Of a DNA stretch of 64,000 bases, positions 5,767 to 17,906 are shown piece after piece. Where the stretch lies: positions 62,001-126,000 of the forward strand of contig NZ_NIZW01000015.1 of assembly GCF_002727185.1 (NCBI RefSeq), written 5' to 3'. The notes under the pieces were generated by a model, which made no database searches, had not been told where the DNA came from, and saw only the letters and a program-made list of their open reading frames with translations. The translations under genes were made by a program, and so were the position numbers. The first letter of the stretch is position 1. Every line of letters begins with the position of its first letter. The stretch comes from Rhodopirellula bahusiensis. GTDB taxonomy: Bacteria; Planctomycetota; Planctomycetia; Pirellulales; Pirellulaceae.

Positions 5767-6795
5767 TCACTTCAGCCAAGGGCGCGATGCATCCGGCTGA
5801 ACCGCGATGATCGGCGGCTGAGATGATTCGATGGTGCCGTTGTTGGGTGCGATCATTCCCGGCGGTGTCGCCAACCACGTCTCCACGTTCCAGCCGGCTT
5901 GGCGGGTTGCGGATGGATCCAACCGCATCGCTTGAGCCAACCAGGTTTGTGCGATCTCGGGCTGGCCAGAATCAACTGCGATCGACGCCAGTTGCAAACG
6001 TGACGTCGCATCCTCTGGGTTTTTCTGAGCCGAGGCGATGAAGTACTGGACCGACTCTTCGGTTCGCCCCAGTTCTCGCATCGCGATTCCTCGCAGCAAG
6101 TCCGCGGCTCCCGGGCGAATGGCCTCGTCGACGTCGCCTACGACCTGAGCGTCTTCACGCAAGCGATCCAAAGTTGCAAGCAGGCGATCGTAGCGTTTCT
6201 GTTGGTGATAAATCTCTGCCGTTCGCAATTGAACGTACGGGTAGTCGGGCTGCAGTGACAAAGCTCGGTGGTAAGCCGACAACGCTTCGTCTTTCTCGTT
6301 TCGAGCGACTTGGCAATCGCCCCAGAGAGCCCAGAGGGCCGCCCATTCACGATCCGAGTCCAGTGCAATTTGACACTGCCGTGCCGCCTCGTCGACTCGT
6401 CCCACTTCCAAGTACATCCGCCCCAAACGCTGCATGTGCTTAGGATCGCCGGCCGAAAGCTGAACCGCCTTTTCGAGGTGCTCGATCGCTTCTTCTCGAA
6501 GACCTTTTTGCCACAGCGATTCGGACATCCCACGATGCGCCGCGTCGTTGACGTTGGATACGTCGAGCGCCTCCGTGAACAGTGTTTCCGCGACCGTCCA
6601 ATCGCCTTGACGCATCGCTTTCGTGCCCTGCCGCGATAGACGTCGAGCGGCGATTGATTGCCGGCTTTCACCGAACCGTCCGATGCCGCGACAGCCTGCC
6701 GAGGGTGGGATGGTCGTGAAACACGTCATCAATAATCCCAGCCGCAACGCCTTCTTCGACAACGACGCGACTGACTCCACGCCAACGATGCGCAT
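5767..6795 (-). CDS. TPR-repeat lipoprotein
   Basis: A 342-aa protein of unknown exact role. Starting at the ATG at 6795 gives a basic N-terminus, a hydrophobic stretch (ALRLGLLMTCFTTIPP) and a lipobox-like PSAGC at about residue 30-35, so export and lipid anchoring are likely. From residue ~60 there are several TPR units, for example in AHRGMSESLWQKGLREEAIE and ALWGDCQVARNEKDEALSAY, which normally act as protein-binding scaffolds. The frame stays open upstream to 7116, but that extension translates the palindromic repeats at 6983-7153 and should not be treated as protein. Convergent with sua5. Confidence 0.75.
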   Translation of the reverse strand: MRIVGVESVASLSKKALRLGLLMTCFTTIPPSAGCRGIGRFGESRQSIAARRLSRQGTKAMRQGDWTVAETLFTEALDVSNVNDAAHRGMSESLWQKGLREEAIEHLEKAVQLSAGDPKHMQRLGRMYLEVGRVDEAARQCQIALDSDREWAALWALWGDCQVARNEKDEALSAYHRALSLQPDYPYVQLRTAEIYHQQKRYDRLLATLDRLREDAQVVGDVDEAIRPGAADLLRGIAMRELGRTEESVQYFIASAQKNPEDATSRLQLASIAVDSGQPEIAQTWLAQAMRLDPSATRQAGWNVETWLATPPGMIAPNNGTIESSQPPIIAVQPDASRPWLK

Positions 6796-6982
6796 CCATC
6801 GGTTGCATCGCTTTGGATGCCAATCGGTTGGAAGACGCAACGGTTTCACGCGGTTAGTTCCGGAGGAAAACAAGCGGCACCGCACGACAAACGCGGCGCC
6901 ACTCTCACGCATAGCAAAATGACGTTCCCCGATGCCAGAGAACTCGAAAAACCCCGCCAATCTCGCAAGCTGCCAAGTCTCG

Positions 6983-7990: not shown

Positions 7991-8113
7991 TCCTGGCACG
8001 TTGGCGAGGTTCCCTGCGGCGTGAATCCTCAGCCATTCCAGACATGCAATGCGGTTGCAAACAACGTTGCTGAATGCGAATTGATTTCTCGCAGATTTCT
8101 GAAGGCACTCCGC

Positions 8114-11747: not shown

Positions 11748-12770
11748 ATGCCACTCGTCCCACTTCGCGTTGTCTTGGATCACGCCGCCGAAAACGATTA
11801 CGGCGTTGCGGCGTTCAACGTCAACAACATGGAGCAGATCCAGGCGATCATGGAAGCTGCCGATGAAACCGATTCACCGGTCATCATCCAAGCCTCGCGT
11901 GGCGCTCGTGCTTACACCCAAGACACCTACCTTCGTCACCTGATGGTCGCCGCGGCGGAACTGTACCCACAGATTCCAATCGTCATGCACCAAGACCACG
12001 GCAACAGCCCCGAGACCTGCTTGTCGGCCATCGAAAATGGCTTCACCAGCGTCATGATGGACGGCTCGCTCGAAGCTGACGGTCAAACCCCAGCCGACTA
12101 CGAATACAACGTCAAAGTCACCGCTGAAGTCGTGAAGATGGCACACGCTCGCGGCGTCAGCGTCGAAGGCGAACTGGGTTGCCTCGGATCGCTCGAAGAC
12201 GGTGGCGGCGAACAAGAAGACGGCCACGGTGCAGTCGGAACGCTGACCCACGACCAACTGTTGACCGACCCCGATGAAGCTCAACGTTTCGTCGAAGAAA
12301 CCGGCTGCGATGCACTGGCCGTTGCGATCGGCACCAGCCACGGTGCCTACAAATTCACCAAGAAACCAACCGGTGAAGTTCTGGCCATGGATCGCATCGA
12401 AGCCATCCACGCCAAGCTCCCCAACACTCACTTGGTCATGCACGGCAGCAGCAGCGTGCCACAAGAATTGCAGGACATCATCAACCAGTTCGGTGGTGAG
12501 ATGAAGCAAACTTACGGCGTGCCTGTGGAAGAAATCCAACGTGGTATCAAGAGCGGTGTTCGCAAGATCAACGTCGACACCGATTGCCGCATGGCGATCA
12601 CCGGTGCGATCCGCAAAGTCTTGACCGAAGACAAAGCCGCCTTCGATCCACGCGCTTACTTGAAACCAGCCCGCACCGCGATGAAGGACGTTTGCGTCGC
12701 TCGCATGACCGCCTTCGGCCAAGCCGGCAACGGTGCCAAGTTGCGTGCGACTCTCGGCGCCGCAGTCTGA
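11748..12770 (+). CDS. fba: Fructose-bisphosphate aldolase, class II (zinc)
   Basis: Cleaves or forms fructose 1,6-bisphosphate in glycolysis and gluconeogenesis. 340 aa. Class II signatures are clear: [12 protein letters not shown] with catalytic Asp83 and zinc ligand His84, GELGCLG at 141, zinc ligands His198 (IGTSHGAYK) and His232 (LVMHGSSS), and the phosphate-binding [11 protein letters not shown] near 273-283. The long insert with [15 protein letters not shown] resembles the class IIB/CbbA type. It stands between the sodA terminator and its own terminator, so it is probably monocistronic. Confidence 0.98.
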
Positions 12771-12820
12771 TCCAACTCGCGTTTCACCAATTTAAACGCG
12801 AACGAACAACACACAATTCA

Positions 12821-12857
12821 AAAGCCTGGAACGGAACCCTCCGCTCCAGGCTTTTTT
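12821..12857 (+). terminator. Rho-independent terminator after fba
   Basis: AAAGCCTGGA and TCCAGGCTTT form a near-perfect stem with a ~16-base loop region and six T. Lies 51 bases after the fba stop. Confidence 0.9.
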
Positions 12858-13493
12858 CATGCCCAAACCCCGTGATGGACGAGGCGACAAGGCCTTCACG
12901 CCAACGGCACGCCAGAAACCAAACAGGTCGGCAGAAACTATCGAGCACAACCATATGACTCATTAGGGCGTTGCGACTTGCTGTACAACCAGCGAGGCCT
13001 TCAATGGCAAGGCCTGCCACCGACATCGCCAAAACGTGCGGTTGCAACGCGCCGATGCCAGATTGCTCGCCTGCCTTCCACTAGCGTGAACGATGAGAAA
13101 CCATTCAGTCACAACAGGCAGCAGACATGGTACCTTAGTCCTTCCAAAAAACCGCTGACTCGCCCGAACTTTCGTCGTTCTCGACCAAACGAGCTGACCT
13201 GGAATCGCAACTTGCACGTAGATTCACCCAGAATGCACCGAAGGTTTTTAAGAACAACCGCAAGCCGACTCACCAAATCGCTGTCTCGTGATCAACAAGT
13301 GAAGGCAGAGCTTCTGGGAAACGATACAAAGCAGATGAGAAACGGTTGTGAATGACGGGCATTAGCCCGATTGCAATAATAGTCAGGTAAATATTAATTA
13401 ATCTCAGGCGAAGTGCTCTCCTACTCGCCTAGGCGTGGCAATGGGTCGCCTAGCACCATAGACGCGACTTACAACTTACGGTGTGAAGACAGT
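12858..13493. other. Intergenic region upstream of the nuclease-TPR-PIN gene
   Basis: About 640 bases in which I see no supported gene. The last ~120 bases are AT-rich (TAAATATTAATTAATCT around 13387-13403), unlike most of the window, and probably hold the promoter of the large gene. The AAGGCCT-containing text near 12891 and 13000-13010 suggests a minor repeat. Confidence 0.5.
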
Positions 13494-16400
13494 ATGCGGT
13501 TCAGGTATCCACACCCCGGAAACGAAGATGAATTTGAAGAGTTTTGCGTAAGGTTCTATCGTCATCTTCTACGTCGCGAAGGGCTAGTTCGATATGGCAA
13601 GCGAGGAGAAAAGCAAGATGGAATCGATATCATCGATCAGCTTGGAATGAAACCACTCCACGTCATCCAGTGCAAAAACCACGAGCCGACGAAGACGATT
13701 CCACCAAAAGAAATCAACGATGAGGTTTTCGCTGCAGAGGCTTCAGCGCATAGCATTGACCGTTTCATTATCTCCACAACAGCTAGGAAGAGCAAAAACG
13801 CTCAGGATACTGTCTTGCAGCTAAACCAAAGAAATGCAGGTTGCCCTCCGTTTAAGGTCGAAATTCATTTTTGGGAGGATGTTTGCGGTTACTTGGACGG
13901 GTTTGGAAGGGCGGTCGCCGAGTTCATCGTGTACTCCGAATCGATAGAGGCTCTTCCGTTGGCCCGAGTAAGCCGAGCCTCGTACCAACCAACTGTCGAC
14001 TTGGACCAGGACAACGCTGACGAACTCTTCCAGGACATTCATAAGCTATTCGAGGTTAGAAAGCTTGAAGCGGCTCAGCATGAGATTGATAAGCTGCCAG
14101 ATCCTCAACAGAACGAGGCTCTGGAGACGAATCAGCGTTACGCGATTCTGCGACTCAGGGCGAAGATGGCTTTGGAAACTCTACAGGCCGACGAAGCGAT
14201 ACGCCTGTTCCACCTTGCGTATGAAACATGCCCAAACCTGCAACAAGCAAGGCGGAATCGAGTACTCGCTCTGGAGTTCGCTGGGGACCGTAAGCAAGCA
14301 CTAATCGAGGCAAAGAATCTGATAAACGATGGCGATCAGTCGTCATATCTGATGGCGTTTATTATCCGAAACTCGGAAACAGCCTCCGATCTCAAGCCGT
14401 ACCAAGAGAGCATCAACACGCACTCCTCCACCGATATCGATGTCAACATTGAGCTGGCCCAAAGATACCTGAAGTGGGGAAGAGCTGAGGACGCCAGGGA
14501 AGCCGCAAGTAAGGCAGTTGAACTATCCCCAGACTCCGCACACGCCCAATTTGCACTGGGCATGGTCTCCCACCACCTAGCTCTGCACGGCGATTGGCAG
14601 ACACGTACACAGCGACTCACCAAAGCGATTGAGCATTATTCGGACGCTATAAAGGCGGCAATTCGCGACAATTATCGCGGCCTGATCCCTGAAATACTTA
14701 TTCACCGTGCGAGAGTTAATTCGTTCTTGCGGCAACTCGACAAAGCCGACGCGGACTTTCGTGCCGCTGTTGATGCCGCTAGTGTTCCAAGTCTCTACGC
14801 AGAAGCAGCAGTATCATTCTTTTTGAGCGAGGACGATTACGAGTCAGCAGAGGAGATGCTTCCAGTGCTTGACTCATCGTCGGATGAAGCCGCCTTCCTG
14901 ATTGGAGTTACAAAGTACCACTGCGCTTCTCCGCGTGACAAAATGGAGGTACTGTCTGATTTCATCAAGTTGACCGAACGTAATTTTGATAGGTCGAACG
15001 AAATTCGATACTTCTGTGTTCAATGGGCAATCGAGCTTTCAAATCTATCGCTTGCCCGAGAATGTGTGCCCGACAGTTTCGTTGACCAATTTTCATTCCA
15101 AGGAAATTCTTTACTGGCTTGGATTGAGCTCGAATCGGGGAAGCGAAACCGTGCAGGTGAGTTCGCTTTCGATGCGCTCAATTCAAGCTCGAAATCTGCC
15201 CATCGAATGGAGATTGCGATATTAGCCAGAATACTGGTCCGCCTTGGCGAAGAGGAAAAGGCCCTCCCGCTTTGGGAGCAAGCGGCTGTGCCAGGGATCT
15301 TGAACGACGACTGCAAAGCGTTGTTTAGTTGCGCTCAGCGGCTCGATCGCCACGACACTCTTCTGCGCATTTGCTCTGAGCTCAGGGAAACAGGTCAACA
15401 AGATCAATTGATCCGAAAAGTTGAGATTCAACTCCTATCTCAGTATCAACCAGAGAAGGCTTTTGAACTGGCGACCAAATATCGAGAACTTGACAATGTC
15501 TACTATGGTGCGATGCGAAATTTCCTTGCGATTCGCCTCGCCAAGCTCGGAGAAGTCGATCTCCCTAAACAGTTGGCATCGCACGCCCCAAAAATTTCCC
15601 CCGAAGAAGCGTACCTAGTAGTTGTCCCGCTTATCGAAACATCGTGTTACTTGCTTGCGATTGACTTTCTCTACCACCAACTGCGCTCCCACTTTTCCAG
15701 CGCGCTCGCGCATGGGCAATTTATCTGGACGTTTTTAAGGTTTGCCGAGAAAGCCGAGATTGCAGTCCAACCCAACGTTGTAGACGTTCAAAGTGCGGTT
15801 CAGCTCAAGAACTCGTCGAAAGAAGACACTCGTTGGGTCGTCATAGAGGATACAAGTCCAGACCCTGCGAGGGATGAATTCACGGCCACTTCGCCCGTAG
15901 CCCAACCGTTGGTTGGGAAACATAGAGGCGACTCTGTCGACCTCACTCGCTTGACGGCGCAGCCTCATCAAGAACGGATCGTCGACGTCAAGTCAAAATA
16001 CGCGTATCGCTTCGAAGATTCGATAAAGAACTTCCAGATTCGATTTCCAGGCGAGGCATCAATACAGTCGATCAACATGGGAACACCGGACGACCTAGAT
16101 CCAGCTCCCCTCGTTGAGAGTCTAAAGGAACGGAAGGAATATGTAGACAAGGCGATAGCATTCTACCACGAGGAACCTTGTTCCTTGCATCTACTTGCAA
16201 CTCGCATAGGGTTAAGCGAGTACAAAACCATGGATGGTCTGACTGCGAATGACGCCTGGATGCTACGGTGCAACGAGTGTTCTCCAAGCGAGTTCGATGA
16301 ACGTGCTGTTGAAGGATTTGAAGGGCAGAAGATCGTCACGGATTTATCTGCTCTTGTAACCATCACGCGACTTGGCATTTTGGATTGCCTCGCTGACCAA

Positions 16401-17225
16401 TACGAATTCATCGTTTCTCGAAAATCCAAAGAGACAATTATTGATTGGCTCAGCGAACTTCCTGATCCCGAACAAGGGGCGGACACCTATGCGTCCCTCA
16501 CCGCAGAAGGTGAATTCACCATTCGGGAGGTGCCGTTTGAATTAGCGAAACGCGACCGCGAAGAAATAGAATCAATCGTTTCCTTCGTTGAGTCACACTG
16601 CGAGGTGAGGGATTCCCCTGGAATGGTAAATCTTGCCCCAAAGAAACGCAAACTCTACGGTGAGTTCATCGGGCTCCATAGCCTTGATTCGATTGGCATA
16701 GCTGTCGACGAACACTCTTTACTGTGGACCGATGACTTTTGCACTGCCATGATCGCAGAGACTGATTTCGGTGTGGATCGAATATGGACCCAGTTGCTTC
16801 TCAGGGCCTTCTTAGCGAATGGTAGCCCTGCAACTCCTCAGCTCTACAGCGAAATGGTGGCTAAACTAGCTGGCTGGAATTACGTGTCAACAGTTTGGAA
16901 CAACGAAGATGTCGTTGCGGCAGGCGAACTATGTAACTGGGATATCAATACCTGGCCTCTGAAACAGTGCCTGCGTCTTTTTCGCTCACTAAGGATGCCA
17001 CGATCTGCAAAGGCTCGTCATATGCTAGACTTCTTTCGACAGCTTCGCAGGTCATCGTGTGTCGAATTCAAGCAAACTACGATTGTACAGTCGACCCTCA
17101 ATGAGTTGAACTGCGCGGCAACAGTACGGCTGATGATTCGTCACGTTGACCAGTTTTTCCCGATCGATTTTCCGTCGGCGAGCTTCCTGAAAGAGGAGTT
17201 CATCTACTGGGCCAAGCTGAGATAA
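13494..17225 (+). CDS. Multidomain Mrr-like nuclease - TPR - GreA/B-C-like - PIN-like protein
   Basis: A 1243-aa cytoplasmic protein. Residues ~10-150 look like a restriction-endonuclease (Mrr/PD-(D/E)xK) fold: DGIDIID with Asp45 followed by VIQCKN with Gln59 and Lys61. Residues ~190-700 are helical repeats including clear TPRs (RAEDAREAASKAVELSP, ~330-346). At ~795-835 the text SPVAQPLVGKHRGDSVDL, then ERIVDVKSKY, resembles the C-terminal domain of GreA/GreB. From ~945 a PIN-like nuclease is suggested by Asp950 (IVTDLSALVTI), Glu980 (SRKSKETIIDW) and Asp1080/1081 (LLWTDDFCTAMI). I chose the ATG at 13494; a GTG at 13413 is in frame. Codon use is visibly less GC-rich than in neighbouring genes and there is no operon partner, so horizontal transfer is likely. 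The domain calls are by eye; the function (conflict, defence or RNA stress response) is inferred. Confidence 0.75.
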   Translation: MRFRYPHPGNEDEFEEFCVRFYRHLLRREGLVRYGKRGEKQDGIDIIDQLGMKPLHVIQCKNHEPTKTIPPKEINDEVFAAEASAHSIDRFIISTTARKSKNAQDTVLQLNQRNAGCPPFKVEIHFWEDVCGYLDGFGRAVAEFIVYSESIEALPLARVSRASYQPTVDLDQDNADELFQDIHKLFEVRKLEAAQHEIDKLPDPQQNEALETNQRYAILRLRAKMALETLQADEAIRLFHLAYETCPNLQQARRNRVLALEFAGDRKQALIEAKNLINDGDQSSYLMAFIIRNSETASDLKPYQESINTHSSTDIDVNIELAQRYLKWGRAEDAREAASKAVELSPDSAHAQFALGMVSHHLALHGDWQTRTQRLTKAIEHYSDAIKAAIRDNYRGLIPEILIHRARVNSFLRQLDKADADFRAAVDAASVPSLYAEAAVSFFLSEDDYESAEEMLPVLDSSSDEAAFLIGVTKYHCASPRDKMEVLSDFIKLTERNFDRSNEIRYFCVQWAIELSNLSLARECVPDSFVDQFSFQGNSLLAWIELESGKRNRAGEFAFDALNSSSKSAHRMEIAILARILVRLGEEEKALPLWEQAAVPGILNDDCKALFSCAQRLDRHDTLLRICSELRETGQQDQLIRKVEIQLLSQYQPEKAFELATKYRELDNVYYGAMRNFLAIRLAKLGEVDLPKQLASHAPKISPEEAYLVVVPLIETSCYLLAIDFLYHQLRSHFSSALAHGQFIWTFLRFAEKAEIAVQPNVVDVQSAVQLKNSSKEDTRWVVIEDTSPDPARDEFTATSPVAQPLVGKHRGDSVDLTRLTAQPHQERIVDVKSKYAYRFEDSIKNFQIRFPGEASIQSINMGTPDDLDPAPLVESLKERKEYVDKAIAFYHEEPCSLHLLATRIGLSEYKTMDGLTANDAWMLRCNECSPSEFDERAVEGFEGQKIVTDLSALVTITRLGILDCLADQYEFIVSRKSKETIIDWLSELPDPEQGADTYASLTAEGEFTIREVPFELAKRDREEIESIVSFVESHCEVRDSPGMVNLAPKKRKLYGEFIGLHSLDSIGIAVDEHSLLWTDDFCTAMIAETDFGVDRIWTQLLLRAFLANGSPATPQLYSEMVAKLAGWNYVSTVWNNEDVVAAGELCNWDINTWPLKQCLRLFRSLRMPRSAKARHMLDFFRQLRRSSCVEFKQTTIVQSTLNELNCAATVRLMIRHVDQFFPIDFPSASFLKEEFIYWAKLR

Positions 17226-17543
17226 GTTGGTATCAAGCTGCACCGCAACTCGTACAGTTCGAACACCACGTGATGAGTGGCTATCCTACAGGCCAATTTT
17301 TAACGGAAGCCCAAAAGGAGACGGGGGGCAATTGGAGGCGTCTCTGCTTTCAGCGCCTTCCTTGCTGTCGAAATGTGGCCCGAAGGTCACGTCGGTCAAC
17401 GAGTTGATCGTCTCAGTTGAAGAGGACCGTGGGCAAACGGCTGAGCGAGTTTTTTTGCGCTGGCTCACAGCCACTTGTGCCCCTTCGCTAAACTGAAACT
17501 TAGACACTCAAATCCCATCTCTCTGATCCACACGAAAACCGTC
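17226..17543. other. Intergenic region after the nuclease-TPR-PIN gene
   Basis: 318 bases with no supported gene. GAGTGGCTATCCTACAGG at 17275-17292 resembles the CAAGAGTGCCCATCCTACAG repeat at 18153-18172, so it may be a degraded copy. A T-run at ~17451-17457 lacks a convincing stem. Confidence 0.45.
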
Positions 17544-17906
17544 ATGTCGTACGAAATCACCGAGATTGCCGAGGGCAAGATCATCGAACTGGTTCTCTCT
17601 GGCAAACTCACCGGGGAAGCCTACGAGCAGTTTGTGCCGGTGGTGGATGCCCAAATTGAACGCTGGGGCAAAGTCCGGATGATGGTCGTGCTCACCGACT
17701 TTCATGGCTGGGACGCGGCCGCACTCTGGGCCGATACCAAGTTCGCAATGAAACACTTCAGCGATATCGAACGACTCGCACTCGTCGGCGAATCGAAGTG
17801 GGAAGCCGGCATGGCCACCTTCTGCAAACCGTTCACCAAAGCTGCCGTCAAATATTTTGATCTCGCGAACATCGAAGATGCCCGGGCTTGGATCCAAGAA
17901 ACCTGA
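17544..17906 (+). CDS. SpoIIAA/STAS-like (Sec14-type) small protein
   Basis: A 120-aa cytoplasmic protein. Pattern and length fit the 'SpoIIAA-like' STAS family (PF11964): an N-terminal beta hairpin (YEITEIAEGKIIELVLSGKL), then VVLTDFHGWDAAALWADTKF and the conserved ERLALVGESKWEAGMATF followed by a C-terminal FDLANIEDARAWI. Members are small and soluble and their biochemistry is mostly unknown; lipid or partner binding has been suggested from the fold. The ATG at 17544 is preferred over upstream in-frame codons because it begins the conserved domain. Free-standing, followed immediately by palindromic repeats. Confidence 0.85.
   Translation: MSYEITEIAEGKIIELVLSGKLTGEAYEQFVPVVDAQIERWGKVRMMVVLTDFHGWDAAALWADTKFAMKHFSDIERLALVGESKWEAGMATFCKPFTKAAVKYFDLANIEDARAWIQET

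Follow-up and report, generated by a model that had tools for sequence, protein, structure and literature searches.

This analysis concerns a 64,000-nucleotide stretch of the genome of Rhodopirellula bahusiensis, a marine planctomycete (RefSeq assembly GCF_002727185.1, contig NZ_NIZW01000015.1, positions 62,001 to 126,000 of the forward strand; hereafter the window), and within it a single gene whose 1,243-residue product joins an Mrr-type nuclease domain, TPRs, the C-terminal domain of GreA and GreB (GreA/B-C) and a PIN domain. The open reading frame (ORF) is open across 13413–17225 on the + strand, with the ATG at 13494 as its likely start, in agreement with close relatives. With its PIN, GreA/B-C and TPR parts and an N-terminal effector of the variable kind, the protein belongs to the TPR-GreA/B-C-PIN core family, and its parts are as follows.

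13494–17225, + strand: gene for the restriction endonuclease (REase)-TPR-GreA/B-C-PIN protein, 1,243 residues (ORF and domain profiles)
13524–13934, + strand: Mrr-type PD-(D/E)xK nuclease domain, residues ~11–147, with D45, Q59 and K61 (Pfam, conservation, model, Foldseek)
14061–15698, + strand: TPR or alpha-solenoid region, residues ~190–735 (Pfam at ~318–429 only; remainder inferred from the alignment)
15771–15992, + strand: GreA/GreB C-terminal domain, residues 760–833, motif SPVAQPLVGKHRGD from residue 800 (profiles, alignment, Foldseek)
16335–16748, + strand: PIN domain (PF20698), residues 948–1085, acidic residues D950, E980, D1065 and D1080 (Pfam, alignment, model, Foldseek)
16764–17222, + strand: C-terminal helical region, residues ~1091–1243, without an assigned family (model)

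Domain architecture and the described family

Residues 1–170 taken alone match the Pfam families Mrr_cat_2 (expectation value, E, 8.3e-9) and Mrr_cat (E 2.1e-6), both above cut-off, and D45, Q59 and K61, which an earlier note on this DNA had picked out as the D and QCK of a PD-(D/E)xK domain, are invariant in 11 of 11 aligned nuclease sequences. An AlphaFold model of these residues (11-sequence alignment; mean predicted local distance difference test score, pLDDT, 84.9, with residues 151–170 below 50) matched MspJI and EcoT38I in the PDB by Foldseek with probability 1.00, Avs4 with 0.99 and a chain of a McrBC assembly with 0.95. The fold is thus related to the N-terminal nuclease of Avs4, for which the sequence profile gave only E 0.42; Avs4 carries helical repeats and a STAND ATPase, whereas Pfam reported no STAND ATPase in the window protein, which has GreA/B-C and PIN domains instead. 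The TPRs foreseen in the middle of the protein were matched by several models within residues 318–429, all slightly under or under cut-off (TPR_2 and TPR_8 at E ~1e-5), and the alignment suggests that the solenoid is wider than these Pfam matches.

The segment near residue 800 that had been likened to the GreA/GreB C-terminal fold proved to be just that. Residues 760–833 match PF01272 at E 1.2e-5, with 25.6 bits just below the cut-off of 26.9 (31.5 bits in the genome search), and SPVAQPLVGK, beginning at residue 800, is of the SPxAxxLxGK type shared with the C-terminal domains of GreA, GreB and Gfh1, the GreA of the same genome having TSPFGQGLVGKKVGE. Searched against the PDB, a profile of 11 relatives found GreA (1grj) at E 5.6e-5, followed at E 0.014 by trigger factor, which has an FKBP-type fold. 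An AlphaFold model of residues 690–1243 (11-sequence alignment, mean pLDDT 86.0) returned GreA, GreB, Gfh1 and a Gre-like polymerase-interacting protein at Foldseek ranks 1–13, each with probability 1.00, rank 1 alone having E <0.001. In GreA and GreB the N-terminal half is a coiled coil with catalytic acids; here the Gre C-terminal domain is embedded in a protein of 1,243 residues, and the Gre N-terminal half was not detected, the NCBIfam GreA and GreB models matching only from about position 67–95 of ~160.

A linker separates this domain from the PIN domain, where PF20698 matches residues 948–1085 at E 1.8e-13 (51.4 bits against a cut-off of 27.8) and is also matched by all 11 aligned relatives. 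PIN-type proteins stand lower in the same Foldseek list, every one with E >0.05: 3ix7 (probability 1.00), VapC 5ecw (0.99), the EST1A PIN domain 2dok (0.93) and protein-only RNase P (0.54–0.93); the PDB title of 3ix7 reads function unknown, and we take it to be a PIN protein. The PIN profile had no match in a sequence search of the PDB, and hhalign of a poor, small PIN alignment against four visually chosen PIN-like proteins gave nothing (probability 0.3). Since only the first Foldseek rank has E <0.001, the PIN assignment, which bears out the earlier reading of a D950/E980/D1080 set, rests jointly on PF20698, the conserved acidic residues and the fold matches. Among those residues D1080 is retained in 10 of 10 core rows; at position 1065, three of the 11 printed rows have E and the other 8 have D.

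This architecture does not differ from that of the TPR-GreA/B-C-PIN system set out in the text of PMC8195603 (eLife 2021), in which a constant core of TPR, GreA/B-C and PIN (PF20698) is preceded by EAD10 or by any of 13 effectors, which include REase, HNH, PNPase, TIR, SIR2 and peptidases; core, variable N-terminal effector, single gene and rapid evolution are common to both. The same text predicts that the system acts on polymerases which viruses have hijacked for their transcription, and describes the genes as mostly standalone, with few conserved neighbours. Because the architecture is described there, the window gene is a member of an already described, predicted immune kind and not a new system, so that the newness proposed for it falls. 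The earlier note was correct in placing combinations of GreA/B-C and PIN in surveys of conflict systems. PMC9503650 includes TPR-GreA/B-PIN among anti-phage systems, and passages of PMC7159879 and PMC10907252 gave no mention of the system. The word BREX is absent from the main text of PMC8195603, whose source data may list BREX-embedded cases.

Relatives, their neighbours and horizontal transfer

In a search of 241 genomes of the family, with the best two candidates per genome scored, 25 matched at E 0.001; 15 of these were dropped as matching at the N-terminus only, or in TPRs or short stretches only, which leaves the core in 10 of 241 genomes (G000, G003, G004, G012, G018, G461, G476, G575, G615 and G630) and in 4 of 13 genomes of the same genus, the window's own included. 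One of the ten copies (G630) ends at a contig end with its PIN domain outside the sequence, and another (G615) is split. Across the order, 37 of 396 genomes passed E 1e-5 and 11 exceeded 60 bits, the remainder (~24–31 bits) being interpreted as weak matches, to ordinary Gre-like proteins or others; PF20698 was above cut-off in 3 of 392 genomes of the phylum, and one scan of genome contigs yielded a single relative. The patchy distribution that a conflict system was expected to have was therefore found, along with homologues of the same domain order and, beside some of them, defence genes.

Four of the ten family copies lie in BREX loci, one beside HsdR and one near a HEC-06/Orf5-like gene. The G003 copy sits in the series brxA-brxB-brxC-(two genes)-pglX-[gene]-pglZ-brxL, whose six BREX genes were all confirmed by PADLOC, and in G575 pglX-[gene]-pglZ-brxL follows by homology to G003 (66, 90 and 87% identity), with brxA, brxB and brxC recognised by eye and further genes ahead of pglX. 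The G461 copy directly follows pglX (Pfam, homology) and precedes two large ORFs, pglZ (PF08665) and, by eye, a BrxL-like ORF, while G476 has a SMEK-type member after pglW, pglX, pglY, pglZ, brxD and brxHI, a type 2 BREX by PADLOC. The G004 member follows a type I HsdR and a small helix-turn-helix (HTH)-like ORF, with HsdS and HsdM recognised by eye, and in G630 the HEC-06/Orf5/SspE-like gene lies ~400 nucleotides upstream. PglZ occurs in 35 of the 241 family genomes, in 40 places, and in 5 of the 10 carriers (Fisher p 0.007); a PglZ match is found no more than 15 kb from 4 of the 10 copies, for which the binomial probability, assuming 7-Mb genomes and uniform placement, is 5e-11. A Mutator-type transposase adjoins the gene in G018.

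The N-termini of other relatives are SMEK, SIR2 or PNP domains. A protein search of 72,556 plasmid records gave ten matches, five with the core and five with the nuclease only. Four of the five core plasmids are alphaproteobacterial and encode proteins that begin with the nuclease motif; the one such copy checked with Pfam has TPRs, GreA/B-C (E 0.0022) and PIN and matched no Mrr family at E 0.01, so that its nuclease rests on motif and alignment. The fifth, from Nostoc, has a PNP-type N-terminus. On Sinorhizobium meliloti pC (L112, 1–15144) the gene lies near an annotated Shedu nuclease, a UvrD-type helicase, an ATP-dependent endonuclease, ThiF and Mov34; near the other three alphaproteobacterial copies are toxin-antitoxin, transposase, recombinase or methylase genes and no clear defence island. 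Phage carriage was rejected, as 50,697 phage records gave no match at E 1e-5 and a pattern-based scan of viral contigs gave none.

Small genes precede several copies. A 125-residue frame lies upstream of the window gene, and in some relatives the gene is immediately preceded by one that is annotated or HTH-like; an HTH gene, a small ORF and the gene occur in this order on three of the alphaproteobacterial plasmids (L110, L112, L113), and the HTH-like ORF of G004 (L041) is directly upstream. A small adjacent antitoxin gene is the mark of VapBC-like type II toxin-antitoxin pairs; possibly the upstream HTH gene is a regulator. Two distant genomes of the phylum (G430, L053 7723–13027; G348, L054 6610–11962) share a different arrangement, of two genes: a TPR protein with weak PF20698 matches, which in G430 also has an HTH_upst_double_PIN domain, is followed by a protein of 669 or 682 residues.

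Within the family the parts evolve at different paces, the nuclease being the best conserved region in 7 of 7 compared pairs and PIN the least or tied least (the pairs share sequences). The nuclease module is also found without the core, by itself or combined with different partners. In Rhodopirellula sp. SM50 (L011/L045) a detached module with 58% identity over 152 residues lies in a 330-residue ORF (L011, 7719–8711; a matching start at 8001 would give ~236 residues) that, followed by a 400-residue ORF, stands in a DISARM locus, with DrmMI on one side and DrmA and DrmB on the other. The nuclease tree groups this module with the planctomycete members, within a clade of nine rows supported at 100/100; its precise place there has weaker support (89/90). 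A stand-alone 311-residue nuclease-module gene lies at 5968–6903 of Leclercia adecarboxylata plasmid pE1_003 (L150), which also has phage capsid and tail genes. Elsewhere only nuclease residues 1–41 or 1–45 are matched, at 54–58% identity in frames of 53–57 residues (G035, L047 9569–9691; G511, L048 10000–9866), and these are perhaps decayed nuclease genes.

The gene has moved between genera. In a tree of 20 core sequences, same-genus copies pair with those of other genera (G000 with G018, G012 with G615, G003 with G575, G004 with G630), each pair with support of 97/98 or better, and a clade of the four same-genus copies was rejected (approximately unbiased test, p 4.75e-5); the G630 row is only 37% filled, the deeper forks are unsure from long branches, and the test of an REase-type clade was framed after the tree had been seen, which makes its p value loose. 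Between G012 and G615, of different genera, the gene is 94% identical in nucleotides and fba 84%, with synonymous divergence (dS) of 0.16–0.19 for the gene against 0.91 for fba, and homology stops soon outside the gene except for one 81-nucleotide match. The window gene has a guanine plus cytosine (GC) content of 50.1% against 55.7% for the window, and a third-position GC (GC3) of 0.53 against 0.59–0.74 in 12 other window genes. In the split G615 copy (L044, 6524–12793) the interrupting ORF encodes a Mu-type transposase domain, and there is an apparent 5-base target duplication.

The cargo hotspot between fba and a SpoIIAA-like gene

The window gene stands between two conserved neighbours, as follows.

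11748–12770, + strand: left neighbour, class II fructose-bisphosphate aldolase (fba), conserved (Pfam, region comparison)
12820–12862, + strand: fba 3' hairpin and T-run, conserved left edge (inverted repeat I2; flank comparison)
12863–17430, no strand: variable cargo interval between fba and the SpoIIAA-like gene (flank comparison)
17544–17906, + strand: right neighbour, SpoIIAA-like protein, conserved (Pfam, region comparison)

The fba protein was searched in 17 genomes, of which 14 gave matches of 86–99% and had their regions compared; three with 29–31% were left out. The order superoxide dismutase (SOD)-fba-[x]-SpoIIAA is kept in 5 of the 14 regions, all of the window's genus, and nine lack it; none of the 14 stretches encodes the window protein at E 1e-8. 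From fba to the SpoIIAA-like gene the interval measures 399 nucleotides in G011, 2,018 in G009, 3,415 in G004, 5,863 in G002, 7,392 in G006 and 4,773 in the window. Its left edge lies just past the fba hairpin, after which the window-shared sequence ends in G011, G004, G002 and G006 (G009 has the hairpin block too, displaced by ~200 nucleotides), and its right edge lies at ~17306–17534 depending on the genome compared. The G006 site (L058, 1167–8560) holds a CBASS-type cyclase (E 4.6e-112), an HNH-SAVED protein, a class 3 lipase, an M78 peptidase and an HTH-like ORF, the G002 site an AbiU/AIPR protein (E 2.3e-76) with IS66-element-like genes recognised by eye, the G004 site a nucleotidyltransferase and a pentapeptide protein, and the G009 site a 214-residue ORF without a family. 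Because the five same-genus sites are nearly empty or differently filled, we regard the site as a hotspot for cargo genes; in two of the five other genomes this cargo includes recognised defence genes. The consensus terminator scan did not list the fba hairpin, promoter and terminator scans found no more sites than in shuffles, and Rfam and tRNA scans of the window gave no hits.

Proposed function and rival explanations

We consider it probable, with a fair margin of doubt, that this is a one-gene anti-phage defence of the TPR-GreA/B-C-PIN kind which moves horizontally, its protein carrying an Mrr-type N-terminal effector and docking on the polymerase; the conflict-system reading of the earlier note is supported to this extent, with fold matches for the Gre-like and PIN-like segments and a gene that is neither universal nor fixed in one place. 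Gre C-terminal domains, PIN domains and Mrr-type nucleases have established roles in their known families. By analogy with these, the GreA/B-C domain would dock at the secondary channel of RNA polymerase, the PIN domain would cut RNA there and the Mrr-type domain would cut DNA. More weakly, the fast-evolving part from the TPRs to PIN may recognise infection, as a phage-altered polymerase or a phage protein, and recognition may release the slower-evolving nuclease onto DNA, killing the phage or the cell; it is the difference in evolutionary pace that suggests the one part as the recognising side and the other as the output. The emphasis on recognition by the core differs from the proposal in PMC8195603, where PIN acts first and the N-terminal effector second.

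Several observations weigh against this reading. D occupies position 950 in 8 of 10 rows, E and S replacing it in the other two, and at position 980 an acidic residue is kept in 8 of 10. The Gre motif of the type 1 BREX copies has SD, SE or SG in place of SP, and polymerase docking may therefore not be universal. PADLOC (2023) has no model naming the TPR-GreA/B-C-PIN kind and returned the window protein only as a weak match to its type IIG model, via the nuclease. No defence gene was found among seven scanned neighbour proteins of the window gene, and none was recognised beside the G018, G012 and G615 copies, few of whose neighbours were profile-scanned. The window genome has no PglZ match at E 1e-10, on which ground a role as a BREX component proper was rejected. 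Finally, the literature, consulted mostly outside subscription journals, yielded no experimental test of the family.

The strongest rival, itself doubtful, makes the Mrr-type nuclease the sole working effector, with GreA/B-C and PIN as non-catalytic recognition modules. The ranking of nuclease and PIN by conservation, the imperfectly kept PIN residues and the existence of the nuclease module without the core all fit this; the invariance of D1080 does not, nor does the retention of PIN in members with SIR2, SMEK or PNP-type N-termini, and DS-3, a one-protein PIN defence system of another architecture, requires its PIN catalytic residues (PMC13092281). If instead the protein were a PrrC-like guard of restriction or BREX, inactive as long as the neighbouring system works and switched on once a phage inhibitor blocks it, its place in BREX loci and beside HsdR, overlapping the preceding gene or only a few bases from it, would be expected. 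PrrC, an RNase found inside a type I locus, and PARIS, found inside BREX, are published cases of effectors in operon slots like those of some relatives. We know of no domain that either shares with the window protein, and nothing points to activation by anti-restriction proteins. Moreover, the window copy lies outside such an operon in a genome that gave no PglZ match, no such operon appears among the annotated genes around the five plasmid copies (an incomplete gene table), the tested Salmonella PARIS genes were inactive against every phage tried, and insertions between pglX and pglZ are common, in ~7,000 of ~9,000 genomes according to a survey (PMC11341690). We think a guard role unlikely.

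A vertically inherited planctomycete transcription-stress factor seems very improbable. It would suit the GreA/B-C fold, and since an ordinary GreA is encoded separately in the window genome, a second factor could have a regulatory role; distribution largely refutes it, however, with the gene in only 4 of 13 same-genus genomes, a tree in conflict with the genus, sites nearly empty or differently filled and one copy split by a transposase ORF, and on these grounds (patchy, transferred, once disrupted) a housekeeping or stress role was rejected.

Returning to the anti-phage reading, a bolder version of it, which we rate no higher than the guard role, has the protein ride on the polymerase as a sentinel: transcribed invading DNA or a phage-modified polymerase would trigger cleavage of nascent RNA by PIN and cutting of the template by the Mrr-type domain, and in planctomycetes the gene would be a recurrent BREX effector cargo supplying a DNA nuclease. 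A preprint from 2025 (PMC11974810) reportedly, to go by its title, has PglZ itself as a nuclease. For BREX, no DNA cleavage has been seen according to a 2025 review (PMC12707154).

What is new here is genomic context: the defence hypothesis, so far based on architecture alone, now draws on location as well. With some members embedded in BREX, and another occupying a site used by CBASS- and AbiU-type genes in other genomes, a prediction drawn from domains becomes a testable hypothesis of defence. In a 2024 survey, ~5,000 of ~7,000 pglX-pglZ regions had no known system (PMC11341690), and the family is a candidate for some of the genes that lie there. If polymerase docking is true, the protein would be an immune sensor that reads transcription itself.

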